Shown here piece after piece: positions 1,845 to 63,617 of a stretch of DNA of 64,000 nt. The notes under the pieces are model-generated. The model was not told the DNA's origin and did no database searches. It saw only the letters and a list, made by a program, of their open reading frames with translations. Positions within the stretch are counted from its first letter, which is position 1. Each line of letters begins with the position of its first letter. Source of the stretch: Methanoculleus caldifontis (GTDB lineage Archaea; Halobacteriota; Methanomicrobia; Methanomicrobiales; Methanoculleaceae); NCBI RefSeq assembly GCF_032842345.1, contig NZ_WBKO01000003.1, positions 1 to 64,000 of the forward strand. The letters are read 5' to 3'. The position numbers were made by a program, and so were the translations under genes.

Positions 1845-4750
<2,906 letters not shown>

Positions 4751-4755
4751 TGCCT

Positions 4756-4790
4756 TCCGCTGAACTCAGACGAAATCCGGAGTACGCACC
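4756..4790 (+). other. pre-23S processing stem, 3' half (bulge-helix-bulge)
   Basis: Complement of 1805-1839. The inner helix 4756-4768 is a perfect complement of 1827-1839. Cleavage in the two AAA bulges would free the 23S precursor before the 5S gene. Confidence 0.88.
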
Positions 4791-4809
4791 AACCACACAG
4801 CCCACTACT

Positions 4810-4937
4810 GGTAATAGCGGCCATAGCAGAGGGGAAACACCTGGACCCATTCCGAACCCAGCAGTTAAGCCCTCTCACGTGACGTGTGGTACTGAGGTAC
4901 GCGAGTCCTCGGGAAGCTCGACTCGCTGCTATTACCT
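4810..4937 (+). rRNA. rrf: 5S ribosomal RNA, copy 1
   Basis: Typical 5S core with GGGGAAACACCTGGACCCAT and CCGAACCCAGCAGTTAAGCCC, and complementary ends GGTAATAGC/GCTATTACC. It lies about 60 nt behind the 23S. A near-identical second copy lies 387 bp downstream; the repeated block is 4809-4945 against 5196-5332 with one difference (T4918 versus C5305). Confidence 0.96.
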
Positions 4938-5036
4938 CCTTTCCATTGGAACGCTGTTCTTCTATTGACCTACCCTGGTTAAGGTGGGTAATCCTTAAAT
5001 ACCTGGGTAGCAAACATATAGGAGGCAATATCCCTT

Positions 5037-5108
5037 GCCAAGGTGGCGGAGCGGCCACGCGGTTGACTGCAGATCAACTACACCCCGGTTCAAGTCCGGG
5101 CCTTGGCT
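5037..5108 (+). tRNA. tRNA-Cys (GCA)
   Basis: Acceptor GCCAAGG pairs with CCTTGGC, anticodon stem GTTGA/TCAAC closes CTGCAGA with anticodon GCA, the T-arm is CCCGG-TTCAAGT-CCGGG, and the discriminator is T, as expected for tRNA-Cys. It lies between the two 5S genes at the distal end of the rRNA operon. Confidence 0.96.
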
Positions 5109-5196
5109 TTTGTCCGGGTGCGTAAGCAGCCGGGCAAGGAGAGAACCCATCAGGGTTTTCGACTTCGGCTGGCATCCATCAGGGTGTTCAGCACAT

Positions 5197-5324
5197 GGTA
5201 ATAGCGGCCATAGCAGAGGGGAAACACCTGGACCCATTCCGAACCCAGCAGTTAAGCCCTCTCACGTGACGTGTGGTACTGAGGTACGCGAGTCCTCGGG
5301 AAGCCCGACTCGCTGCTATTACCT
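5197..5324 (+). rRNA. rrf: 5S ribosomal RNA, copy 2
   Basis: Second 5S gene, differing from copy 1 at one visible base and sharing about nine further 3' flanking bases. Its end-to-end complementarity is intact, so it looks functional. It lies after tRNA-Cys and probably belongs to the same transcript. The spacer 5109-5196 shows nothing recognisable beyond a short repeat of CCATCAGGGT. The following 5325-5503 also shows no gene. Confidence 0.93.
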
Positions 5325-5503
5325 CCTTTCCAAGACATCTACTGCTCTTCTCTGACTCTTTCACCAGGAGTCTCGACTATCCTGTTCCCGGTATCTTCAA
5401 GAACCGTCTCTTCTCCGGAACATGGTTTACTGCCGCGATGCGGCCTGGCAAAATACAAGGAAAGGGGGTCCGGAGGATCGCACTTCGCTCCTGCCCCTCA
5501 CGG

Positions 5504-5941
5504 CTACACTGTCACATAACGCGCTGCTTTCTCTTTCTCCTCCTGGAAGATCTCGCTGAGTTCAAAAAGGACGCCCGCATCGATATGCCGCTCCGCCAGG
5601 ACGAAGACGTCGGTCTCCTCCGTGGCGAAGTGCTCCTCGACCTCTCTCCTCAGGTTGACGAGCGCCGGCATCCAGTCCGCATCCCTGAGCGGGATCCGCT
5701 CGAACCGGGCAAGCGTATCGCGGACCCGCGCATGCTCGTCGAGCGATCGCCGGATCTCCTCCGGCACCGTGTCGCGGAGGTATGCATAGAGCGTGACCTC
5801 CTCCGCGTAGATATGGCCCGGCAACTCGCGCCGGAGCGTGATGCACCGCACGTCCCGCGCCTCGGGGCTGCTCTCGAGTTCGTCGAAGAGGCCCCTGATC
5901 AACTCGTGATCTTCACGTATCAACTCAAGAATCTGTGGCAT
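5504..5941 (-). CDS. hemerythrin domain protein
   Basis: Cytoplasmic four-helix hemerythrin-like (HHE) protein of 145 aa. Candidate di-iron ligands are visible at H12, H43, E47, H70, H104 and E108. Proteins of this family bind O2 or sense oxygen, NO or iron; the role here is inferred only from the fold. The start is well supported by GGAGGT seven bases upstream of the ATG. It is followed upstream by a second hemerythrin-type gene in the same direction, about 130 bp away, so the pair may serve oxidative defence in an anaerobe. Confidence 0.88.
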   Translation of the reverse strand: MPQILELIREDHELIRGLFDELESSPEARDVRCITLRRELPGHIYAEEVTLYAYLRDTVPEEIRRSLDEHARVRDTLARFERIPLRDADWMPALVNLRREVEEHFATEETDVFVLAERHIDAGVLFELSEIFQEEKEKAARYVTV

Positions 5942-6069
5942 CTGTCTACCTCCATCCGGACGAGCAATGGAGGGTGTGCCACTTAACCGTTTCGCCGGCA
6001 GATTCGGCGGGTTCCCGCCCGAAAAAATGGGGGCGCCGGTGCCTGTACACCCCGCCCCTTATCCCTGCT

Positions 6070-6519
6070 TCAGCGCGCCGCCATCGGCATTGCGCTCTTC
6101 TTCGACTCCTCGTACTTGCTTCCGATGCTTGAGAGCTCGTCGCTGCTCATCTCCTGTTGCATCTGCGGGAAGATGTGCTCCTCCTCCTCGCTGATGTGGT
6201 GCTCCACGTTCTCATGGATCACCTTGATCTTCGCAACCCAGACGTCCTCTTCGGAGGTCGACGCGCTGTCGAGCTGGGAGAGGAGCGACTTGACCGCGTT
6301 GTGCTCCTCGATCGCCTCAAGGGCCATGTCCCGCATCCCCGAATCCATGAGTTTCGGGTATACGGCCTGCTCTTCCCCGATCATGTGCGGCATGAGGTTC
6401 TCCTTTAAGGAGTTGTACTTCTGCTCGCGGTTGCTCGTGCCCTTGCTCGAGAGTTCCGAGAGCTGCGAGAGCACCATCTTGTGCTCCTGCTTCAGGATAT
6501 CGATAACATTCTGCGCCAT
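6070..6519 (-). CDS. hemerythrin domain protein
   Basis: Second HHE-type protein, 149 aa, not a close copy of its neighbour. Likely metal ligands are H13, H45, E49, H73, H107 or H108, and E112. The start has a long purine stretch GGGAGTGATC before the ATG, matching the 16S 3' end. A TATA-like ATATATAC lies near 6570-6577 on this strand. A role in O2 or NO binding, or iron sensing, is likely; no partner gene indicates which. Confidence 0.88.
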   Translation of the reverse strand: MAQNVIDILKQEHKMVLSQLSELSSKGTSNREQKYNSLKENLMPHMIGEEQAVYPKLMDSGMRDMALEAIEEHNAVKSLLSQLDSASTSEEDVWVAKIKVIHENVEHHISEEEEHIFPQMQQEMSSDELSSIGSKYEESKKSAMPMAAR

Positions 6520-6673
6520 CCGATCACTCCCCCCTTAATGGCAGGGGAGCCATCATGGGCAGGTCCGGTATATATGAATTATCCCGGCCCCGGACGCCAG
6601 CCCCTCCGCCCCCTTCACGCTCCCCCGATCGCCTGCCGGATACCATAAATGCTCCGGGTGCCTAGATACCCGT

Positions 6674-7987
6674 ATGCCGGAAGAGGGATCGGATGCCCCG
6701 GGCCGGGGAGGGAGACTCCGGCGCGAGCTCGGCCTGCCCGCCGTCACCCTGTCGGGGGTGGGGATCATTCTCGGGGCCGGGATCTACGCCCTGCTCGGCC
6801 AGGCCGCCGGAATGGCCGGGAACGCCGTCTGGCTGACCTTCGCCGTCGCCGCCGTCATCGCCGCGTTCAGTGCCCTGAGTTATGCGGAACTCTCGTCGAT
6901 GTACCCCCGGGCGGGCGCCGAGTTCGAGTACGTCTTCCATGCGTTCGGGGAGAGACTTGCGTTCGTCGTCGGGTGGCTGATCGTCTTCTCCGGCATCCTC
7001 GGGGCCGCGACCGTCTCGCTCGGCTTTGCCGGCTACTTCTCCGACTTCACCGGCTTCTCCCTCATCCCTTCCGCCATCCTCCTCCTCGCCTTCCTCGCCG
7101 GTATCCTCCTCTACGGCATCAAAGAGACCGCCCGGGCCGCGATCGCCATGACGCTCATCGAGGTCGGGGGGATCGTCATGGTCATCCTGATCGGCCTCCC
7201 CTACCTCGGCCGGGTGGACTACTTCGAGATGCCCTTCGGGGTCTCCGGCCTTCTGCAGGCGTCCGCCCTCGTCTTCTTCGCCTACATGGGGTTTGAGGAG
7301 ATGGTCAAACTCTCGGAGGAGACCCGCGAGCCGGAGAAGATCATCCCGCTCGCCCTGATCATCGCGCTCGCCGTCTCCATCTTCCTCTACGTCCTGGTCT
7401 CGCTTGCCGCCGTCTCGGTCGTCGGCTGGGAGCAGCTCGCCGCCTCCCGCGCACCGTTCGCCGAGGTCGCTTCCGTCGCCTTCGGCCCCGCGGCGTTCAC
7501 CATCATCTCCGTCATCGCCCTCTTCGCCACCGCAAACACCGCCCTCCTGATGATGATGGCCTCTTCGCGGATCCTCTACGGCATGGCCTCCTCTACCGCG
7601 CTCCCGCCGGCCCTCGCCCGGGTGCATCCGCGAACCCGGACGCCCTGGGTGGCGATCGTCGTCGTCGTCCTCGCCTCCATGGCGTTCCTCTTCGCCGGCG
7701 AGATCGACTTCGTCGCGAACGTCACCAACTTCACGCTCTTTGTGACGTTCGTCGTCATCAACGCCTCCGTCATCCTGCTCCGTTACCGGGCCCCCGATCT
7801 CGTGCGGCCCTTCCGGATCCCGGGAGCCGTCGGGACGCTGCCGCTCGTCCCGGTCCTCGGCGTGGTCTCAAGCCTCTTCCTTCTCGCCCAGCTGGACGCC
7901 CTGGTGCTCCTGGTCGGCGGGGTCCTGGTCGTCGTCGGGACCGGGATTGCGCTCGCCGGGCACCGCGGGCTCCGTGGTACGCAATAG
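6674..7987 (+). CDS. APC-family amino acid permease
   Basis: Integral membrane transporter of 437 aa with about 12 hydrophobic helices. The N-terminal helix carries the APC signature GVGIILGAGIYALLGQAAG, and YAELSSMYPRAGAEFEY in the next loop is the usual conserved block (AELxxxxPxxGGxY type). It probably moves amino acids or polyamines by cation coupling or exchange; the substrate cannot be read from sequence. A TATA-like stretch lies near 6642-6650 and no Shine-Dalgarno precedes the ATG, so the mRNA may be nearly leaderless. The gene stands alone. Confidence 0.9.
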   Translation: MPEEGSDAPGRGGRLRRELGLPAVTLSGVGIILGAGIYALLGQAAGMAGNAVWLTFAVAAVIAAFSALSYAELSSMYPRAGAEFEYVFHAFGERLAFVVGWLIVFSGILGAATVSLGFAGYFSDFTGFSLIPSAILLLAFLAGILLYGIKETARAAIAMTLIEVGGIVMVILIGLPYLGRVDYFEMPFGVSGLLQASALVFFAYMGFEEMVKLSEETREPEKIIPLALIIALAVSIFLYVLVSLAAVSVVGWEQLAASRAPFAEVASVAFGPAAFTIISVIALFATANTALLMMMASSRILYGMASSTALPPALARVHPRTRTPWVAIVVVVLASMAFLFAGEIDFVANVTNFTLFVTFVVINASVILLRYRAPDLVRPFRIPGAVGTLPLVPVLGVVSSLFLLAQLDALVLLVGGVLVVVGTGIALAGHRGLRGTQ

Positions 7988-7998
7988 TCTATATTGTT

Positions 7999-8010
7999 GA
8001 TATATATGAA
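7999..8010 (+). promoter_or_regulatory. TATA box for the PstS-like gene
   Basis: GATATATATGAA about 50-60 nt upstream of the ATG at 8060. The predicted transcript would start near 8030 with a short leader. No clear phosphate box was recognised. Confidence 0.5.
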
Positions 8011-8059
8011 TTGATTATCATTCGGGAATCTCTATACTTGATCTCTCTCACCCATATGT

Positions 8060-8941
8060 ATGAGAGACAACTCTTCTGCCCGGCGCGGCGGAGCGCTCCT
8101 CGCGATTCTTGCGCTCCTCGCCGTCGCCGTCATGCTCACTGCCGGATGCACGACAGGTACCGACGATGGAACGCCCGCTCCCGGGAACGGGCTCTCCGGG
8201 ACCCTCGCGGTCACCGGCTCGACGACCGTCCTCCCGATCGCCCAGCTGACCGCCGAGGCCTTTATGGCCGAAAACTCCGGCGCGGATATCCAGGTCAGCG
8301 GCGGCGGGTCCAGCGTCGGCATCCAGGCCGTCGGCGAAGGCACCGCGAGTATCGGCATGGCCTCCCGCGACCTGAAGGACGTCGAGAGAGAGAAATACCC
8401 CGAACTCGTCAGTCACGCGATAGCCATCGACGGGATCGCGCTCATCGTCAACCCGAAAAACGCCGTCGACAGCCTGACACCGGACCAGATCCGGGGCATC
8501 TACAACGGCACCTACACCGACTGGAACCAGGTCGGCGGAGCGAGCGGTCAGATCGTCGTCGTCGGCCGTGATAGCGCATCGGGGACCCGCGAGTACTTCC
8601 ACGAAGCCGTGATGCAGAAGGAGGACTTCGTCAGGACCCAGCTCGAGAAGAACTCGAACGGCGCCGTGGCCCAGACCATCTCGCAGACGCCGGGGGCCAT
8701 CGGCTACGTCGGGCTCGGCTATCTCGAGGGGAACGTGAAAGGCATCTCCGTTACCGTGAACGGAAACGCCGTCCCGCCCACGCTCGAGACCGTGAAGGCC
8801 GGGACGTACCCGATCTCGCGCGAGGTCTTCATGTTCACGAAGGGCGAGGCGTCCGATCTCGCGAAGGCGTACATCGAGTTCATCCTCAGCCCCGACGGTC
8901 AGGCGATCGTCGAGGAAGAGGGCTTTGTCCGGGTCGATTAA
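8060..8941 (+). CDS. PstS-like phosphate-binding lipoprotein
   Basis: Extracellular solute-binding protein of the PstS family, 293 aa. A signal peptide ends in the lipobox LTAGC with the lipid-anchored Cys at residue 30. Family motifs include GSTTVLPI, SGGGSSVGI, ASRDLK and GRDSASGTREYF; the Ser/Gly/Asp/Arg/Thr residues in these bind phosphate in PstS. The usual pstC, pstA, pstB and phoU genes are absent from the window, so it is an orphan. It may serve a transporter elsewhere or act in sensing. It ends convergently with the next gene. Confidence 0.9.
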   Translation: MRDNSSARRGGALLAILALLAVAVMLTAGCTTGTDDGTPAPGNGLSGTLAVTGSTTVLPIAQLTAEAFMAENSGADIQVSGGGSSVGIQAVGEGTASIGMASRDLKDVEREKYPELVSHAIAIDGIALIVNPKNAVDSLTPDQIRGIYNGTYTDWNQVGGASGQIVVVGRDSASGTREYFHEAVMQKEDFVRTQLEKNSNGAVAQTISQTPGAIGYVGLGYLEGNVKGISVTVNGNAVPPTLETVKAGTYPISREVFMFTKGEASDLAKAYIEFILSPDGQAIVEEEGFVRVD

Positions 8942-8954
8942 ACTCCCCGGAGCC

Positions 8955-8960
8955 TTTTTT
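8955..8960 (+). terminator. T-tract terminator between convergent genes
   Basis: Six Ts follow the pstS-like stop within 20 bp and run into the stop codon of the convergent gene. Archaeal termination commonly needs only such U-tracts. Confidence 0.45.
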
Positions 8961-10483
8961 CAGTTCCCTTTCGACTCTTTTGCCTGGTAGCGTTCGGTCG
9001 TGCCGACCGCTTCCAGTCTTCCGTCCGCCGAGAGGACCGAGACAGCGCCGTGGCCGCCCGCGACCAGGCACCGGCGGCCGCGCGGGGCGAGCTCTCCGTC
9101 TATCTCCCTGACCAGTTCGAGCAGCGCCCTGCGCTCCTGCCGCGCCCGCTCGCTGTCGACGTTGACCGACGTCACCAGGAAGTCCGCGAGCGAGTTGTAG
9201 CGTTTCCGGTCGTCGTCGAGGCTCCCGAAGTTGATCAGCGTATCAGCGGTGAAGATGATCCCGTGGTCGGGGCAGAAGAAGTAGACCTGGCCGTGCATGT
9301 GCCCGCCGAGCGACTCGAGCACCTCGAACTCGAGGTCGTGGACCCGGAATCGCGCGAGGATGGGGAAGATCGAGCGCATGCCGAGGTGCTCCCCCGAAAA
9401 GAGCGTCGGACTCCCCGGCGGGTTGAAACGCGAGAAGAGGTTGATGATCGTCGTGTAGACCTCTTCGAGGATCGAGGACTCGCTGCGCGAACCGTATGCC
9501 CGGTTCGCCTGTCGGATGATCTCAAGCGAGCCCGGGTGCATGAACGTCTCCGCGTCGAAGAACCCGCCCGCCCCGCAGTGGTCCGCGTCGGCGTGGGTGA
9601 GGTAGACCCGCCGGATCCGCTTGAGGTCGCCGAGGCCGTAGTGCTGGAACATCCGCACGGCGTCCTCGTGGTAACTCCCATACCCCGTATCGATCATGAC
9701 GGTCTCGTCCGGGGCTCTGAGCAGGAAGATGTTCCCCCCGCCCGGCATCTGGAAGCAGAAGACCTCGACGTCGTCGGTGAGCGGGATCCGCTGGACGTCC
9801 GCGTAGAACCGGTCTGTCGTGGTGTTTTTGAGCGTCCTCCCCGTGAGAAGGATGCACTCGAAGACCTCTTTTGGGTCCTGGCCGAGGCTGTTGAGCTCCT
9901 GGACGATATGGTTGACGTCCTGGAGGAGGGAGAGGAGGAAATCGTCCTCGGCCGTCCCGATCAACCCCCGCACCGTCTGGGCGAACCTGACGTAGAAGAC
10001 GGTGTCGTCGAGTTTCTCGCCTGTCGTGTCGTACTCCAGGATCTCGAGGCGGTAGCGCGACTTGAGGCGGTCGAGCAGGCTCTCTACGATCGTGCTCTCT
10101 TCGACGTTTAAGCTGATGGTGAGTCTGTCGGGGTCGCACCGCCGGTCGTCGAAGTCGATGTAGGCGATGTTCGCCCCGGCTCCGGTGATGTAGGTGAGGA
10201 GTTCGAAGAGAGACCCGGGCTGGGGAGCTACGTATACGGAGAACTTGAGGAACCCGAGCGTGGGGAGCGACTCCTGGAGGTAGCCGATGGCGTGGAGGTC
10301 TTCCTTCATCCGCGCGTAGGTCGCGGGCGTCGCGGTCACCTCAAAAAAGACCGTGGCGGGATCGATCCTGCGGTCGAACTGGATGCGGTTGATGTTGCCT
10401 GAGTAGGACTTGATGATCTCGGCCGCGCGGTGCAGCGCGCCAGGCTTGTCGGGCATCCTGGCGACAAAGGAGTATTTATTCAA
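8960..10483 (-). CDS. ACT-ACT-metallo-beta-lactamase fold protein
   Basis: Fusion protein of about 507 aa. Two ACT-like regulatory domains occupy roughly residues 1-150 (ARMPDKPGALHRAAE is the first ligand-binding loop), a helical linker follows, and the C-terminal half is a metallo-beta-lactamase hydrolase with HADADH, GGHMHG, FTADTL and GGHGAV as metal ligands. ACT domains usually bind amino acids, so activity may be amino-acid controlled; the substrate is unknown. The start used is TTG at 10483 with AGGTGA four bases upstream. A GTG at 10531 would add 16 residues, but TTATAG just inside that extension looks like the promoter. Confidence 0.85.
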   Translation of the reverse strand: MNKYSFVARMPDKPGALHRAAEIIKSYSGNINRIQFDRRIDPATVFFEVTATPATYARMKEDLHAIGYLQESLPTLGFLKFSVYVAPQPGSLFELLTYITGAGANIAYIDFDDRRCDPDRLTISLNVEESTIVESLLDRLKSRYRLEILEYDTTGEKLDDTVFYVRFAQTVRGLIGTAEDDFLLSLLQDVNHIVQELNSLGQDPKEVFECILLTGRTLKNTTTDRFYADVQRIPLTDDVEVFCFQMPGGGNIFLLRAPDETVMIDTGYGSYHEDAVRMFQHYGLGDLKRIRRVYLTHADADHCGAGGFFDAETFMHPGSLEIIRQANRAYGSRSESSILEEVYTTIINLFSRFNPPGSPTLFSGEHLGMRSIFPILARFRVHDLEFEVLESLGGHMHGQVYFFCPDHGIIFTADTLINFGSLDDDRKRYNSLADFLVTSVNVDSERARQERRALLELVREIDGELAPRGRRCLVAGGHGAVSVLSADGRLEAVGTTERYQAKESKGN

Positions 10484-56906: not shown

Positions 56907-57614
56907 ATGATGTTCGGGCGCTACATGGGCTCTTTTCATCGGGAATACGGCGATATTATGGTGGAGGCCGAGCGGGCTAACGGTCTTCTCACCTACCGGC
57001 GCAGGTGCGGGGAGCAGACGTTCGAGCGGATCCTGGTCACGAAGACGGGCGAGATGATCATCAACCCGGTGGAGCCGGTCAATCTCCCCAAAGAGATCAC
57101 GAACTACCTCCAGGTGGAGTTCTCCCCGATGGTCCTCGAGCCCGGCACCACCCAGACGGTCTACCTGAAGTTCCCCGTTGAGATCGGCGTCTTCCTCGAG
57201 TCTGCAAAGGACATCGAGGTGCTGGACGTCTTCGCCAACGGCAGCCAGAAGTACACGCTCTACGGTCCCCAGACGAACGGGGTCATCGCCCGGTACCACC
57301 GGAGCGCGGTCTACTCCGAGATCCCCTCAGTCGAGTGCTTCTGCGAGGGCGTGATGGAACTCTCCATCACGAACGCATCCCGCGAGTGGGTGGAGGTCTC
57401 GCAGGTCGTCTTTGACAGCACCGATATGAAGATCTACTACAACGACTTCGTGACGACCACCGCCACGATGAACATCATCAGCGCCAACCTGGCGGAGACG
57501 GACTTCGTCGACGCGCCCCTCCGGCCGGGGATGGTGAAGTCCGTCGAGCTCTATGCGGCCCGCAAGATCCCGGTGATCAACCGGGGCTACCTGATGGAGT
57601 GGGGATTCACATGA
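56907..57614 (+). CDS. DUF432 protein
   Basis: Protein of 235 aa with the DUF432 pattern (FGRYMGSFHREYGDIMVEA, LVTKTGEMIINPVEPVNLPK, LEPGTTQTVYLKFPVEIGVF). It is cytoplasmic and beta-rich, without membrane helices or enzyme motifs. It is paired with a mechanosensitive channel gene by an ATGA overlap, an association seen in many archaea, which suggests it helps or regulates the channel. A second ATG at 56910 is equally possible. Confidence 0.8.
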   Translation: MMFGRYMGSFHREYGDIMVEAERANGLLTYRRRCGEQTFERILVTKTGEMIINPVEPVNLPKEITNYLQVEFSPMVLEPGTTQTVYLKFPVEIGVFLESAKDIEVLDVFANGSQKYTLYGPQTNGVIARYHRSAVYSEIPSVECFCEGVMELSITNASREWVEVSQVVFDSTDMKIYYNDFVTTTATMNIISANLAETDFVDAPLRPGMVKSVELYAARKIPVINRGYLMEWGFT

Positions 57615-58471
57615 ACTTCAACGTGACCGAGATCCTGGAGATGCCCGTCGGCATCGGGGATATCACCCTCGAGCATCTCGTCTACTTCATCGTCATCCTC
57701 ACCCTCGGCGTCACCGTCGCGAGGATCGTCTCAAAGAACGTCCGACGAGCCCTCACGGACAGGTTGCCCAAGAGCGAGCGCGAACTGGTGACGAAACTGA
57801 TCTACTACGTCATCGTCGTCTGGGCCTTCGTCTTCGCCCTCCCGCAGCTCAACGTCGACCTCTCCGGTCTCCTGGTGGCCGGAGGAATCGTCGGTCTGGT
57901 CATCGGTTTCGCAAGCCAGAGCGTCGTCTCGAACCTGATCTCCGGTCTCTTCCTGATGTTCGAGCGCCCGATCAAGATCGGCGACAACATCAACGTATCG
58001 GGCGTCACCGGCAGCGTCGAGGACATCCGCGTCCTCTCGACCGTCGTCAAGATGTACGACGGGATCTATGTCCGGATCCCGAACGAGAAGATCTTCACCT
58101 CGAACATCACGAACTACGTCCAGAACGCGGCCCGGAGGTTCGAGTACGAGATCGGGATCCGGTACCAGGACGACGCGGACAAGGCGATCCGGATCACCAG
58201 AGGGGTCATCGCGAGCCACCCCTTCGCGCTGAAGAACCCGGCCCCCTCGGTCTACGTCGACAACCTCGGTGACGACGGGGTCAACCTGATGGTTCGCATC
58301 TGGGCGCCGGCCCGGGAATGGTGGGATGTCAGGACCGACCTCCTCTGGAGGATCAAGCAGGAACTCGAAGCGAACGGCATCGAGATGCCCTTCCCGCAGC
58401 GCACTGTCTGGTTTGCCGACGGACTCGAGGTGAAGAACCGGGCTGCCCGAAAGAACGAGAGGGAGGAGTAA
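57611..58471 (+). CDS. MscS-family mechanosensitive channel
   Basis: Small-conductance mechanosensitive channel, 286 aa. Three N-terminal helices are followed by the pore helix and the beta domain: GLLVAGGIVGLVIGFASQSV, then ISGLFLMFERPIKIGD and VSGVTGSVEDIRVLSTVV, as in MscS. The C-terminal alpha/beta domain ends in FADGLEVKNRAARK. It overlaps the DUF432 stop by 4 nt. It protects against hypo-osmotic shock by releasing solutes. Confidence 0.92.
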   Translation: MNFNVTEILEMPVGIGDITLEHLVYFIVILTLGVTVARIVSKNVRRALTDRLPKSERELVTKLIYYVIVVWAFVFALPQLNVDLSGLLVAGGIVGLVIGFASQSVVSNLISGLFLMFERPIKIGDNINVSGVTGSVEDIRVLSTVVKMYDGIYVRIPNEKIFTSNITNYVQNAARRFEYEIGIRYQDDADKAIRITRGVIASHPFALKNPAPSVYVDNLGDDGVNLMVRIWAPAREWWDVRTDLLWRIKQELEANGIEMPFPQRTVWFADGLEVKNRAARKNEREE

Positions 58472-58474
58472 CCC

Positions 58475-58481
58475 TTTTTTT
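58475..58481 (+). terminator. T-tract between convergent genes
   Basis: Seven Ts follow the MscS stop within a few bases and touch the stop codon of the convergent MBL-fold gene. Confidence 0.45.
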
Positions 58482-59143
58482 CAGACCCGGTGCACCCTCC
58501 CGGCCCCACCCGGCCGGAAGGAGTCCGGGTAACGCCCCGCGAGGTCCCCTATCCTATCGGTGCAGTGGGATGCGGAGAGGTACTTCACCCCGGCGAGGGC
58601 CCCGACGTCCTCGTCGGTGACGGTGTGCAGCCCGCCGATGACGCCCCATACCGGCCCGACCTCTGAGACCCGATCGACTATCCGGCCGACGTGGGGGTGG
58701 GCGCACCCGGTGACGACCAGGTAGCCGTCCGGCACGGCGATCGCGAGCGACTGTTCGCGGATATCGGTCCCGAGCGGTCCGGTCGCCGCGATCCCCTCAG
58801 CGATCCCGGTCCAGCCGGCCGTGATCCGGGGCTCGGTGTACTCCCGGATGAGCGCGAGCGTCTTTTCGGAGAAACCGTCGTGGACGTAGACCTCCATCGA
58901 CGGGTTTGCCGCGAGGATCGCCGCGATGCCGCCGATATGGTCGTGGTGGTCGTGGGAGAGGACGAGCGTTCCCACGGCCGCGGGATCGATGCCGAGCGCC
59001 TGCATGTTCCTGAGGAGGACGTCGCCGCGCTCCCCGGTATCGAAGAGCAGCCCCGCCTCCTCTACCAGGCAGGAGAACCCCCAGTCGGGGGTGAGCCCCT
59101 CCCGGCAGGGGATGTTGTTGTAGACCTCGATGATGGTGGGCAT
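58481..59143 (-). CDS. MBL-fold metallo-hydrolase
   Basis: Cytoplasmic hydrolase, 220 aa. SHDHHDHIGG (metal ligands near residues 64-70), VTGCAHPHVGR and GGLHTV are the ligand motifs. The pattern is that of COG1237-type proteins, related to 7,8-dihydropterin-6-methyl-beta-ribofuranosylaminobenzene 5'-phosphate synthase-like enzymes of methanopterin synthesis, but that assignment is not safe. It stands alone and ends convergently with MscS. Confidence 0.83.
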   Translation of the reverse strand: MPTIIEVYNNIPCREGLTPDWGFSCLVEEAGLLFDTGERGDVLLRNMQALGIDPAAVGTLVLSHDHHDHIGGIAAILAANPSMEVYVHDGFSEKTLALIREYTEPRITAGWTGIAEGIAATGPLGTDIREQSLAIAVPDGYLVVTGCAHPHVGRIVDRVSEVGPVWGVIGGLHTVTDEDVGALAGVKYLSASHCTDRIGDLAGRYPDSFRPGGAGRVHRV

Positions 59144-59266
59144 AGAAGAGACTCCACCTACCTGATCATCCCTCGGGGGCGATTATCCTTCCCGATGAGG
59201 CAGGAGGCCGGGTCCGGGGCTCGGAGCACCCCGGACCTGCAGACGAAAAATGGGTTTGCGAGAGGG

Positions 59267-60004
59267 TTACACGATGACGTAGGAGATGGAGACGCTCGCG
59301 GTCACGTCGATCTCACCGGCCTCGAGCGGGGTCGGGACGGCGCTGCCCACCGCCTTCTCCATGCCCATGTAGCGGCTGTCGTAGGCCATGGGGATGTAGT
59401 TGTTCCCGACGTTGACCTCTTTGACGTCGACGATCCTCTTGCCGAGGGCCGCGGCGACCGCGTCCGCGTCGCCCCGCGCCTGCGCCACGGCGGCGGTCAG
59501 GGCCTGGGAGCGGAACTCCTGCTGCCTTGCGTCGCTTAAGGTGAACGCGAACCGGTCGACCCGGTTTGCACCGTTCGCGACGGCGATGTCGACGATCTCG
59601 CCGGCACGGTTGACGTCGTTTAGCGTGACTTCAAGGGTGTTGGTGACGCGGTAGAACCTGACCTTTGAGTCGCCGAAGGGCCGGCTGTCGCTCTCGGTCA
59701 CCGGGTAGATGCTGTAGGCGGCGGTCCTGATGTCCCTGGCCGGGATGCCGGCGTTCTTCAGGGCGTTGATCACGGTGTCCATCTTCCGGGCGTTCTCTTG
59801 CTGCGCCGTCTTGACGTCGGCGTGCTCGGTCTCGACCGCGAAGACGATGACGGCCTGGTCGGGCGTGGTCGTCACTTTGCCGGTGCCGAAGACATAGATC
59901 AGTTTGTCTTTAGATTCCTCCGGGAGCTGGGCGGTGACGTTCCCGATCACCGCTGCGCAGAGGACCATCAGGGCGATCCCCAGAAGTGCTGTCTTTCCTC
60001 GCAT
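59267..60004 (-). CDS. SIMPL-domain secreted protein
   Basis: Secreted protein of 245 aa with signal peptide (LLGIALMVLCAAVIGNVTA) and a SIMPL/DUF541 domain: VFGTGKVTTTPDQAVIVFAV, ALKNAGIPARDIRTAAYSIYP, and VTNTLEVTLNDVNRAGEIVD. The family is periplasmic or extracellular in bacteria with poorly known roles, linked to oxidative stress. The ATG at 60004 is used; one three codons upstream is possible. Confidence 0.85.
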   Translation of the reverse strand: MRGKTALLGIALMVLCAAVIGNVTAQLPEESKDKLIYVFGTGKVTTTPDQAVIVFAVETEHADVKTAQQENARKMDTVINALKNAGIPARDIRTAAYSIYPVTESDSRPFGDSKVRFYRVTNTLEVTLNDVNRAGEIVDIAVANGANRVDRFAFTLSDARQQEFRSQALTAAVAQARGDADAVAAALGKRIVDVKEVNVGNNYIPMAYDSRYMGMEKAVGSAVPTPLEAGEIDVTASVSISYVIV

Positions 60005-60125
60005 AAGTATCAATCATCTCTTGGTTCGGTCAAAATAAATATCTTGCTTTAGCTACGAGAATTTTCGTAACTTTACTTTGAGGAATCGCTAAACGGGGTG
60101 TTTATATTTGGATTTGAGTCGCCGC

Positions 60126-60797
60126 TCACTCCCCGCCGCTCTCCGGGATCAGCCCGGCCGCCGCCACCAGCCGGGCGATCAGGACCGCGATATAGAGGGT
60201 CCCGCTCACGGTCTCGAGCAGGGCAAGCGACCGGGCCTGGTCGGTGAGCGGCGTGATGTCGCCGTAGCCCAGCGTCGCGAGGGTGACGAAGCTGTAGTAG
60301 ATGAACGTGGGGAAGGTGAAGGCCGCGTCCGGCTGGCTGCTCGCAAACGATCCGGGGTTGACGGTCTCGACGAGGCTGTAGGCGGTCGCCCAGGTGAGGC
60401 CCATGAGGAGGTAGACGGAGACCGCTCCGGAGATGGTGTCGGAGGTGACCCGGCGTGCACTGACGACCCGCAGGAGGCAGATGAGTGCGGTGAAGGCGTA
60501 GAAGAGGAGCGTGAAGATGCTCTCGGCAGTGCCGAGGGCGGGGACCCCGGTGATGATATAGAGCCAGCCCAGGCCGAAGGCGGGGACGGCGAGGAGGGCG
60601 GCGATCACGACCTGCCGCCGCCGGTTGCTCACGGCGTAGACGCCGGTGGTCAGGACAAACCACGAGAGCACTTTCAGGGCGATCGGGTCTGCGCCCACGT
60701 AGGGGTAGACGGCGAGCAGGAGGATGAGGGCGGCGAGGAGGTAGTGGAACTGCATGGCCCTGGCGCGGGCGAGGTACCGGGCGAGAGGCCCTCTCAT
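60126..60797 (-). CDS. potassium channel, two-TM pore type
   Basis: Membrane protein of 223 aa with about six helices and a K+ filter TLGYGD at residues 175-180 in VTLATLGYGDITP. The pore helix and last helix are in the C-terminal third; the N-terminal helices could be a voltage-sensor-like or other domain but lack the usual Arg series. It overlaps the kinase stop by 4 nt. The kinase and FHA protein upstream may regulate it. Confidence 0.86.
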   Translation of the reverse strand: MRGPLARYLARARAMQFHYLLAALILLLAVYPYVGADPIALKVLSWFVLTTGVYAVSNRRRQVVIAALLAVPAFGLGWLYIITGVPALGTAESIFTLLFYAFTALICLLRVVSARRVTSDTISGAVSVYLLMGLTWATAYSLVETVNPGSFASSQPDAAFTFPTFIYYSFVTLATLGYGDITPLTDQARSLALLETVSGTLYIAVLIARLVAAAGLIPESGGE

Positions 60798-62041
60798 GCT
60801 CCGGCCTCCAGGGCCCTGATCGCGTCGAGCATCTCCCCGGCGGACCGGTAACGGTCGGCGGGGTCTTTTGCGAGGCAGCGGAGGATGACCGCATCAAGCC
60901 CCGCGAGGGCGGGGTCGAGCGCCGACGGGGGAGCCGGCTCTGCGTTCCTGACGGCGAGGGCAAGTTCCCCGGCCCCTTCGCCGGCAAACGGGGTTTTGCC
61001 CGTCGCCATCTCATAGAGGACGGCGCCGAGCTGGTAGATGTCGGTCGCGGCCCCCGTCCGCCCGAACCGTTCCGGGTCTATCTGTTCGGGGGCCGCGTAG
61101 GCGAGGGTGAACCCGGCGGCACCGGTCTCCCGGGTCTCCGCCGGCCTCGTGCTCGTCCCCCAGTCGGCGATCTTCGGCGTCAGGTCGTCGGCAAGAAGGA
61201 TGTTGCCGGGCTTGATGTCGCGGTGGACGATACCCCGCCCGTGGGCGTAGGCGAGCCCGGCGGCGATCCCGGCAGCGATCCGGAGGGCTTCGGCCGGCGG
61301 GAGGGGTTTTTTCAGGCTATCGAGGCTCCGGGGCAGGTACTCCATCTCGACGAACGGGATGGGGAGGATGTTGACCGAGCGGACCCGGACGATGTTCGGA
61401 TGGACCAGGTCCTCCTGGAACCGCATCTCCCGCATGAAGGTCTTCCCGGTCGCCTCGTCGTAGGAGACCGGGACCTTGACCGCCACGGTCATGCCGTCGT
61501 CGCCTCTCATCGCGGAGAAGACCTGGCCGAGCCCCCCTCTCCCGACGAAGGCGACCCGGTCGTAGCGGCCGGCAAGTTCCGCCGGGAACCCTGGCGGGTG
61601 GAGGGGCGGCATCGTCTGATATGCGTCGGGCGGGACGGTGGCCGCCGCCGCCTCTTCCTGCGGCCTCCTGAGGTGCATGCCGATTGCGGCGCCGGCGCCG
61701 ACCAGGAGGAGGGCGAGGAGAACCCCCGGCCAGGGGGACCCGTCCTGGCCGGGGCTTGCAACGGTCTCCGTCGGCACCGGGGTGACGGTCGCTTCCGGTG
61801 ACGGAAGGGCGGTCGGGGTTGTCGCCGGCGTGACGGTCGGTTCCGGCGAGGGGACTGTCGTGGGCGTGGGCTCCGGCGTGGTGCCGCCTTTGCCGTTGTC
61901 CGGCTTCTTTGTGGCCTCGAGAGCCTTCTCTGAGGCGCTGGAGTGCTCCGGGGGGCCTCCCGCGCCGGCTACCGCGGGGACGAGGGCGGCGAGAAGGAGG
62001 GCGGCCGCGAAGAGGAGGGCCGCCATCCGGTCAGGCCGCAT
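60794..62041 (-). CDS. membrane-anchored Ser/Thr protein kinase
   Basis: Hanks-type kinase, 415 aa. The signal peptide is followed by a Pro/Thr-rich extracellular stretch (about residues 50-100) and a helix at 105-122, then the cytosolic kinase: FVGRGGLGQVFSA, Lys 189 in VAVKVP, HRDIKPGN (273-280), DWG (293-295) in place of DFG, and APEQ. All catalytic residues are present. Its start overlaps the FHA gene by 11 nt. It may phosphorylate the FHA protein or the channel. Confidence 0.9.
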   Translation of the reverse strand: MRPDRMAALLFAAALLLAALVPAVAGAGGPPEHSSASEKALEATKKPDNGKGGTTPEPTPTTVPSPEPTVTPATTPTALPSPEATVTPVPTETVASPGQDGSPWPGVLLALLLVGAGAAIGMHLRRPQEEAAAATVPPDAYQTMPPLHPPGFPAELAGRYDRVAFVGRGGLGQVFSAMRGDDGMTVAVKVPVSYDEATGKTFMREMRFQEDLVHPNIVRVRSVNILPIPFVEMEYLPRSLDSLKKPLPPAEALRIAAGIAAGLAYAHGRGIVHRDIKPGNILLADDLTPKIADWGTSTRPAETRETGAAGFTLAYAAPEQIDPERFGRTGAATDIYQLGAVLYEMATGKTPFAGEGAGELALAVRNAEPAPPSALDPALAGLDAVILRCLAKDPADRYRSAGEMLDAIRALEAGA

Positions 62042-62828
62042 CCGGCGGTCGCACCCCCCCGGGCAGGACGAAGACGAGCGTCGCCCCCGAAGGCCCCTTC
62101 GCGAGTTCGACGAGGTCGCCGTCGCAGAGCTCCCGCTTCGCCCCCCGCCCGACCTCGTTCCCGTTCACGAAGGTCCCGCCCGTGCTGCCGGAGTCCTCGA
62201 TGAACCAGGCGCCCTGCCGCCGGGTGAGCCGGGCGTGCGGGCGCGAGACCCGGGTGACCGCCGCGTACTCCTCGCCGAGCACGATCTCCTGCCCGGACCG
62301 CGGGGGCGCGTCCGGGTCCGCCCGGCCCAGGGCGACACTCTCCTCCCCGACCGGGAAGACCTTCCCGTCGTCCGCCCCCCCAAGGAGGATGAGGGCCGGG
62401 CTCTGGTCGGCGAACTCGCCCGAGAACGTCTCCCGGACACCGGCAAGCTTCTCTGCGAGCACGGCGTCCGTGAGCGTCAGGTTCAGGTTCGCAAACAGTC
62501 CGAGACTCCTCGTGATCGCCTCAAGCCCCCCCGGCACGAGCGAGTACTTCCAGACCGGGTGGACTCCCTTCGCCGTCGGCCGCGAGAGGCCCGCCTCCTT
62601 CCGGACGACCCCGATGCCCATCAGTTTGTCGAGGTGCTTCTTGGTGTTCTCGTAACTCGTCTCGATCTCGTGGGAGATCTGCCGGACGTCCTTGGGTTTC
62701 CGCTCGATCACCTTCAGGATCTTCAGGCGCGTGCTGCTGCTCAGCACGTCCAGGTATTCGGAGAGTTCCTGTAAGTCGTCGGTGCTGGTATCGAGGATCA
62801 GTGTCCTTGAGTCGTCGTCGCGGGTCAT
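62031..62828 (-). CDS. winged-helix/FHA protein
   Basis: Protein of 265 aa, first in the operon. An ArsR-like winged helix (SSSTRLKILKVIERKPKDVR, ISHEIETSYENTKKHLDKL) fills residues 25-95, and a FHA domain fills about 165-260 with SRPHARL and the NGNEVG loop after SGSTGGTFVN. FHA binds phosphothreonine, so the kinase encoded next is the likely phosphorylator. It could be a phosphorylation-controlled transcription regulator. Confidence 0.87.
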   Translation of the reverse strand: MTRDDDSRTLILDTSTDDLQELSEYLDVLSSSTRLKILKVIERKPKDVRQISHEIETSYENTKKHLDKLMGIGVVRKEAGLSRPTAKGVHPVWKYSLVPGGLEAITRSLGLFANLNLTLTDAVLAEKLAGVRETFSGEFADQSPALILLGGADDGKVFPVGEESVALGRADPDAPPRSGQEIVLGEEYAAVTRVSRPHARLTRRQGAWFIEDSGSTGGTFVNGNEVGRGAKRELCDGDLVELAKGPSGATLVFVLPGGVRPPDAA

Positions 62829-62988
62829 GGCTCTCCTGCCGGCCTCCTATAGTGGTATGGTTTCGCGAGGCCGCTGATGAAGGTTGTGCACCGGGGCGGG
62901 GCGGGCTGCCGCTCCAGCGGGAACCTGCAGAACGGGGGAGTTCCGGCCTGGATCATGTTTATACCGGAGGACCGATCAGGAGGGGGAC

Positions 62989-63273
62989 ATGCTTGGCGAT
63001 ATCGAGGCGGTGCAGCAGCGGGCCGTGATGGTGGAGATCGAGGAGATGATCCAGTCGACCCCCGACCATGCCGACATCCGGAAGGCGCTCACGGCGCTCG
63101 ACTTCGTGCCGAAACAGGACGACGCCGAAGTCGCAATCTGGGTGCATCCCGTTCTGCGGATCTTCGTCCTGCTCCAGATGAACGTCGGGGGCGGCTACGC
63201 GGGCTACAAGGTCGCGACCTACGAGGACCTTGAACGCCCCGGAAGGGAGTTCGTCGGCTACAACGCCCGGTGA
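62989..63273 (+). CDS. small protein, paralogue of the next gene
   Basis: Protein of 94 aa with no recognised domain. It shares IRKAL and F...K.DD/DN...W...L-F-V and overall layout with the 88-aa product of the next gene. A TTTATACC box lies 31 nt before the ATG, the same distance as the TTTATCC box before the next gene. AGGAGGGGG also lies just before the ATG. Function unknown. Confidence 0.7.
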   Translation: MLGDIEAVQQRAVMVEIEEMIQSTPDHADIRKALTALDFVPKQDDAEVAIWVHPVLRIFVLLQMNVGGGYAGYKVATYEDLERPGREFVGYNAR

Positions 63274-63350: not shown

Positions 63351-63617
63351 ATGCGAGAACAGATACTGGTTGACCGGGAGCAGCAGGAGGCCATGAGGGG
63401 CAGGGTCCGGGAGGCGATCGCCGGCGGCGAGACTTACGACGAGATCCGCAAGGCGCTCAAAGATCTCGGTTTCCAGGCGAAGGAGGACAACCCCGCCCTC
63501 GGCCTCTGGGAGAACCCCGAGCACGAGCTCTTCGTCATGGTCCACATGGACCCCCAGACCGGCAGGCTGCGGGACTCCGATGTCCGGACGTTCGAGGAGA
63601 CCGAAGGGGACGAGTGA
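63351..63617 (+). CDS. small protein, paralogue of the previous gene
   Basis: Protein of 88 aa, unrecognised. The block YDEIRKALKDLGFQAKEDN matches the first paralogue (ADIRKALTALDFVPKQDD). It has its own TATA-like GTTTATCC 31 nt upstream, pointing to a leaderless message. The ATG at 63351 is well placed; the longer ORF is not supported. Unknown role. Confidence 0.68.
   Translation: MREQILVDREQQEAMRGRVREAIAGGETYDEIRKALKDLGFQAKEDNPALGLWENPEHELFVMVHMDPQTGRLRDSDVRTFEETEGDE

Follow-up and report, generated by a model that had tools for sequence, protein, structure and literature searches.

A probable two-gene phospho-relay of a membrane Ser/Thr kinase and an FHA/winged-helix regulator in Methanoculleus caldifontis and other Methanomicrobiales

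A membrane Ser/Thr kinase and the FHA/winged-helix transcription factor encoded beside it in Methanoculleus caldifontis probably form a two-gene phospho-relay similar to PknH-EmbR (a likelihood of about 60%, judging from sequence comparisons), with the placement of a kinase gene beside a phosphothreonine-reading DNA-binding protein suggesting a simple outside-to-gene relay. We favor this reading because the pair is conserved, the evolutionary distances of its two members co-vary, the phosphothreonine (pThr) pocket and Thr9 of the regulator are invariant, the catalytic residues of the kinase are kept, a PP2C phosphatase lies nearby, and the regulator matches the fold of EmbR. Counting against it is the ectodomain of this particular kinase, which is predicted to be only a disordered stalk.

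The pair lies within the last 4 kb of the DNA analyzed here (the window; 64,000 nt, positions 1 to 64,000 of contig NZ_WBKO01000003.1), part of a host genome of 2.6 Mb in four contigs. As an earlier note on this DNA correctly described, three overlapping genes on the reverse strand encode a winged-helix/FHA protein (nt. 62828-62031), a membrane Ser/Thr kinase (nt. 62041-60794), and a K+ channel (nt. 60797-60126), and the Pfam domains match these assignments. The FHA and kinase genes overlap by 11 nt, an arrangement seen again in Methanoculleus loci L004-L008, and the kinase and channel genes overlap by 4 nt, as they also do in L005-L008 (with a GTG channel start, vs. ATG here). Given that the same overlaps recur in Methanoculleus relatives, which are the nearest relatives (80-85% identity), they go beyond chance. 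The FHA gene is the sole FHA match in the host genome; no other kinase there passes the Pfam cut-off, and one more weak match lies below it.

Beside the FHA gene, on the forward strand, lie two genes for small proteins of 94 and 88 a.a (nt. 62989-63273 and 63351-63617) that appear by eye to be mutual paralogues; neither matched a Pfam or NCBIfam family over the cut-off (weak PG_binding_2 only), and both genes stay beside the FHA gene in Methanoculleus. Downstream of the operon (nt. 57599-60013), genes encoding a SIMPL-domain protein, a metallo-beta-lactamase-fold protein, and an MscS channel occur in an order kept in L004-L008.

The regulator (265 a.a) joins a DNA-binding and an FHA domain in one chain, both over the Pfam cut-off: an ArsR-like winged helix (HTH_5, a.a 31-77, E 3e-6; nt. 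62598-62738) that includes the conserved helix TSYENTKKHLDKL (a.a 57-69), and an FHA domain (a.a 168-242, E 1e-12; nt. 62103-62330) with a pThr pocket of R169, S195, H198, and N222. Its homologues share 42-85% identity (n = 40 aligned), and the AlphaFold model has a mean pLDDT of 74 with a pTM of 0.48, so the domain arrangement is not fixed by the model. Across an alignment of 76 FHA homologues, paralogues included, 11 columns are invariant (T9, Y25, L26, L35, K64, G168, R169, R193, H198, S215, and N222), five of which (G168, R169, H198, S215, and N222) fall inside the phosphothreonine-binding FHA motifs. The pocket is kept throughout, with R169, H198, and N222 each present in 76/76 and position 195 occupied by S in 63 and T in 12 of the 76. 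Foldseek matched the regulator to FHA-phosphopeptide structures, including EmbR with phosphopeptide (2ff4). One report on an archaeal FHA protein names three conserved phosphothreonine-recognizing residues (PMC10470591).

Also invariant is Thr9 (codon at nt. 62802-62804), a candidate phosphosite that is T in all 75 homologues covering the position, the 76th being a divergent copy with a later start. It sits in an N-terminal tail predicted to be flexible (residues 1-14 at pLDDT <50), its neighbors are highly variable (2.7 bits at position 8), and its spacing to the LSEYL helix is constant, with no alignment gaps separating the two. The position +3 from Thr9 is L, I, or V in 57/76 homologues, and the surrounding tail mostly reads [R/K]-T-[ILV]-x-[LIV]. 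The regulator thus combines a conserved Thr in a flexible tail with an FHA domain and, by analogy, displays what looks like the N-terminal phospho-switch pattern of GarA/OdhI. GarA and OdhI are not known to have a DNA-binding domain, unlike the regulator here, whose tail also lacks their ETTS motif. As described in PMC8546545, GarA/OdhI are FHA proteins with a phosphorylatable N-terminal Thr tail, the FHA domain serving as the kinase docking site. The invariance of Thr9 could also have another cause, such as structure or DNA contact.

The kinase (415 a.a) comprises a signal/transmembrane segment, a P/T-rich stalk, a second transmembrane segment, and a cytoplasmic Hanks kinase domain (Pkinase, a.a 161-398, E 4e-38; nt. 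60848-61561). The loop glycines, K189, E205, the HRD motif (H273-R274-D275), K277, N280, and the DWG motif (D293-W294-G295) are present in 33/33 aligned kinases, giving the Gly-rich loop, VAxK, Glu, HRDxKxxN, and DxG features of Hanks kinases, with DWG replacing DFG; APE is found in 32/33, with one gap. In four further modules the HRD Arg is replaced (HCD in L050 and L059, HLD in L053 and L061). We considered DWG as a hallmark of FHA-linked kinases and rejected it, as it also occurs in 4/5 kinases not adjoining an FHA gene. The best NCBIfam match was NF033483 (E 1e-55, far below the cut-off), and the Hanks domain is shared with PASTA kinases (PknB/Stk1); however, a PASTA kinase identity was rejected, since no PASTA repeats were found in the window kinase or in 10 scanned relatives. 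The topology is the reverse of that of PknB. Elsewhere in the order, at two loci (L057 in G100, L056 in G006), two or three large kinases are clustered with no FHA gene, and an additional kinase pair in G006 adjoins a PP2C gene.

Outside the cell, the kinase would expose the residues between two hydrophobic stretches (a.a 3-30 and 102-125), 77 in number and holding 17 P and 15 T (the Pro/Thr-rich stretch at a.a 28-104, nt. 61730-61960). The earlier note had called this an extracellular Pro/Thr-rich sensor; it is rich in Pro and Thr, but no Pfam domain was matched in the stretch and most of a.a 22-103 is at pLDDT <50, as predicted for a disordered stalk and not a folded sensor domain. Pfam was run on 10 of 30 full-length relatives: four have a PEGA ectodomain, two a NosD/beta-helix one, and four none that matched, the folded ectodomains belonging to kinases of other genera. 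As the ectodomain differs in this way among relatives, the outside part appears to have been exchanged while the catalytic part and the regulator stayed constant.

Of 150 Methanomicrobiales genomes, 99 encode the FHA/winged-helix protein, representing 29 of 35 genera; in a phylum-wide draw it occurs in 43/55 genomes of the order vs. 0/239 others (E 1e-15). A genome scan with this protein returned 44 loci, all assigned to Methanomicrobiales groups or to 'Euryarchaeota archaeon', and the kinase lies 3' of the FHA gene on the same strand in 34 of them, the other 10 having less than 1 kb of contig past the FHA stop or being cut within the gene. Similarly, for at least 119 of the 150 FHA matches listed, a kinase domain is encoded no more than 4 kb downstream on the FHA strand; eight of the 31 apparent exceptions were inspected, and six had the kinase downstream, one was convergent (L052), and in one a PP2C gene and a second FHA gene intervened (L053). 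In this last locus (nt. 2619-9073), the FHA gene is followed by the PP2C gene, 2.5 kb of further sequence, another FHA gene that is divergent and lacks the Thr9 tail, and then the kinase. Within the window's genus, 24 of 29 genomes have both the FHA protein and the kinase and the other five have neither, and across the order two FHA-bearing genomes (G090 and G104) gave no kinase match at E 1e-10.

The two proteins also appear to have evolved together. Their distance matrices correlate with r = 0.89 over 45 pairs that include paralogous modules (permutation maximum 0.23, n = 2000), a correlation that common species history explains in part, and their trees have 30 of 42 splits in common. Paralogous modules pair as wholes, for instance L048 with L060. 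The conserved core is therefore the FHA protein and the kinase, as the adjacency and joint occurrence of the two genes indicate, and of the conserved neighborhood that had been envisaged for all three genes, the FHA-kinase pair held up while the channel proved to be present only in some lineages. Together with the invariant pocket and one candidate phosphosite, the adjacency and co-evolution support the view that kinase and FHA transcription factor are a lasting pair.

A candidate third partner is a PP2C phosphatase (PF13672), matched once in the host genome, on the same contig at ~160 kb from the module. PP2C matches occur in 109 of the 150 genomes of the order, and among the 150 PP2C matches listed, at least 26 have an FHA gene no more than 7 kb away, in every case on the strand of the PP2C gene. 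At least 20 of the matches listed are upstream of the FHA gene on the same strand, at least 19 of them at 400 nt or less, which places PP2C just 5' of the module in at least 19 genomes. The nine PF00149 matches in the host genome were uninformative on a phosphatase partner.

In the proposed relay, a surface cue or clustering of the kinase would activate the cytoplasmic kinase domain, which would phosphorylate Thr9 on the regulator's flexible N-terminal tail. The FHA domain of the same chain, or of a neighboring subunit, would then bind the phosphothreonine and alter how the winged helix binds DNA; docking of the regulator on the autophosphorylated kinase is probably a further role of the FHA domain. 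PP2C, which adjoins the module in some lineages and is encoded elsewhere in this genome, would reset the relay, and the K+ channel gene would have joined the transcript as an accessory in Methanoculleus and its sister genus. With this scheme we infer kinase activity, Thr9 phosphorylation, FHA binding, a set of regulated genes, and a signal. The invariant FHA pocket, as well as the S/T residues found in the activation loop of most kinase relatives, would also suit an FHA protein that is recruited to the autophosphorylated membrane kinase and sequestered there, its own phosphorylation not being the switch. We consider this unlikely, as it leaves the invariance of Thr9 (75/75) unexplained while the activation-loop threonines vary. 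A role of the genes in defense was rejected, as in PADLOC the kinase matched mostly generic Ser/Thr-kinase models (PD-T4-6, mad6), the FHA protein matched HTH parts (Csa3, CARF), and the channel gave no match.

The channel (223 a.a) carries an Ion_trans_2 domain (E 1e-13) with a TLGYGD filter of the TxGYG pore type and stops just past its final membrane helix; neither an RCK nor any other cytoplasmic domain was found. Channel homologues occur in 43 of the 150 genomes of the order. Of the 45 matches, 20 are no more than 4 kb 3' of an FHA gene (18/18 in the genus and 2/2 in the sister genus g2), the other 25 being elsewhere or on separate contigs. The channel is missing from 6 of the 24 FHA-bearing genus genomes (four at least 95% complete, two only 80 and 88%) and from L004, the nearest full-length relative; it is carried by none of the five genus genomes lacking the FHA protein. 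Being part of the operon only in the genus and its sister genus, the channel is best described as a lineage-specific accessory that is probably co-transcribed with the FHA and kinase genes. The earlier note had proposed that an outside signal controls K+ flow, and a kinase that phosphorylates both regulator and channel, setting K+ flux and transcription jointly, would agree with the 4-nt overlap of the kinase and channel genes, with the finding that every one of the 20 channel-bearing genomes of the two genera has the channel gene 3' of the FHA gene, and with the absence of the channel from genus members lacking FHA. We nonetheless find such joint control very improbable, given the FHA-bearing genomes and L004 that lack the channel, the 25/45 matches not near an FHA gene, and the missing cytoplasmic regulatory domain; neither phosphorylation control of the channel nor control of K+ flow by the signal is supported.

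Transcriptional control of the channel gene is another matter, and is compatible with the two-gene phospho-relay. Here the FHA regulator would govern transcription of the channel as well as of its own operon, with channel activity not phospho-regulated and K+/osmotic balance as one output, a reading we regard as possible rather than probable. It draws on the common transcript suggested by the gene overlap and on the element GCACAACCTTCATCA (nt. 62875-62889), ~50 nt 5' of the FHA start. With up to one mismatch, 22/24 FHA-bearing genus genomes carry this element 46-54 nt upstream of the FHA match (G080 and G148 being the exceptions) and have few other copies of it, as autoregulation would give. 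However, it is also present in the channel-less genomes G004, G010, G022, and G132 and could be part of a core promoter. In its own genome, GCACAACCTTCATCA has 78 sites with up to three mismatches, while the reversed control has 22+29. The FHA site alone is an exact match, and the one site that differs by a single mismatch falls within an open reading frame. The suggested search for an operator of the FHA protein thus yielded a conserved candidate for autoregulation or for a promoter part, but no regulon was found by searching the own genome with it. In 19 Methanolinea-side loci (L009, L017, L026, L038, and 15 others), a AGAATRTTTTTG-like element at -49 to -53 of the FHA gene is strongly conserved; it was rejected as an operator and read as a core promoter.

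By analogy, the closest known system to the proposed phospho-relay is PknH-EmbR, followed by the Sulfolobus kinase/FHA pairs. PknH has an N-terminal kinase domain and a C-terminal ectodomain, an order reversed in the kinase here, where the ectodomain is N-terminal and the kinase domain C-terminal. As in the Mycobacterium tuberculosis pair, a membrane Ser/Thr kinase gene stands beside that of a winged-helix regulator with a C-terminal FHA domain, and PMC4601284 describes phosphorylation as stimulating promoter interaction in PknH-EmbR, with the FHA domain required. Unlike EmbR, which has an OmpR-type HTH and a bacterial transcriptional activation (BTA) domain, the regulator here has an ArsR-like HTH and no BTA domain in Pfam or NCBIfam. 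Archaeal kinases with FHA proteins are also seen in the Sulfolobus St0829/St1565 and ArnA/ArnB with ArnC/ArnD systems. According to the respective reports, the St0829 kinase phosphorylates the promoter-binding FHA protein St1565, inhibiting its binding (PMC5300886), and ArnA works with the vWA protein ArnB (PMC4858521). Those pairs belong to another phylum, and the module described here was found in 0/239 same-phylum genomes outside Methanomicrobiales. Given the ArsR-like HTH, the lack of a BTA domain, the reversed topology, and the confinement to one order, we view the module as a variant of the kinase/FHA-regulator theme and not as a new kind of system.

Our literature searches did not find this module, although coverage was thin for subscription papers, so its absence is not proven. 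Archaeal Ser/Thr phosphorylation has been studied mainly in Sulfolobus. For Methanomicrobiales as a whole, we tentatively suggest, at somewhat less than an even chance, a dedicated Ser/Thr analogue of two-component signaling, in which a receptor kinase with an exchangeable ectodomain (PEGA, NosD/beta-helix, or stalk) that phosphorylates one invariant tail Thr, a cognate regulator whose own FHA domain reads this Thr, and a PP2C would make up a unit present in up to four insulated copies per genome. An often single-copy methanogen pair with a candidate phosphosite, a reader pocket, and an eraser would make archaeal outside-to-gene Ser/Thr signaling testable using only a pair of proteins and a single point mutant and, if the relay holds true, would show one-to-one pairing of receptor kinases and FHA readers outside bacteria and eukaryotes.
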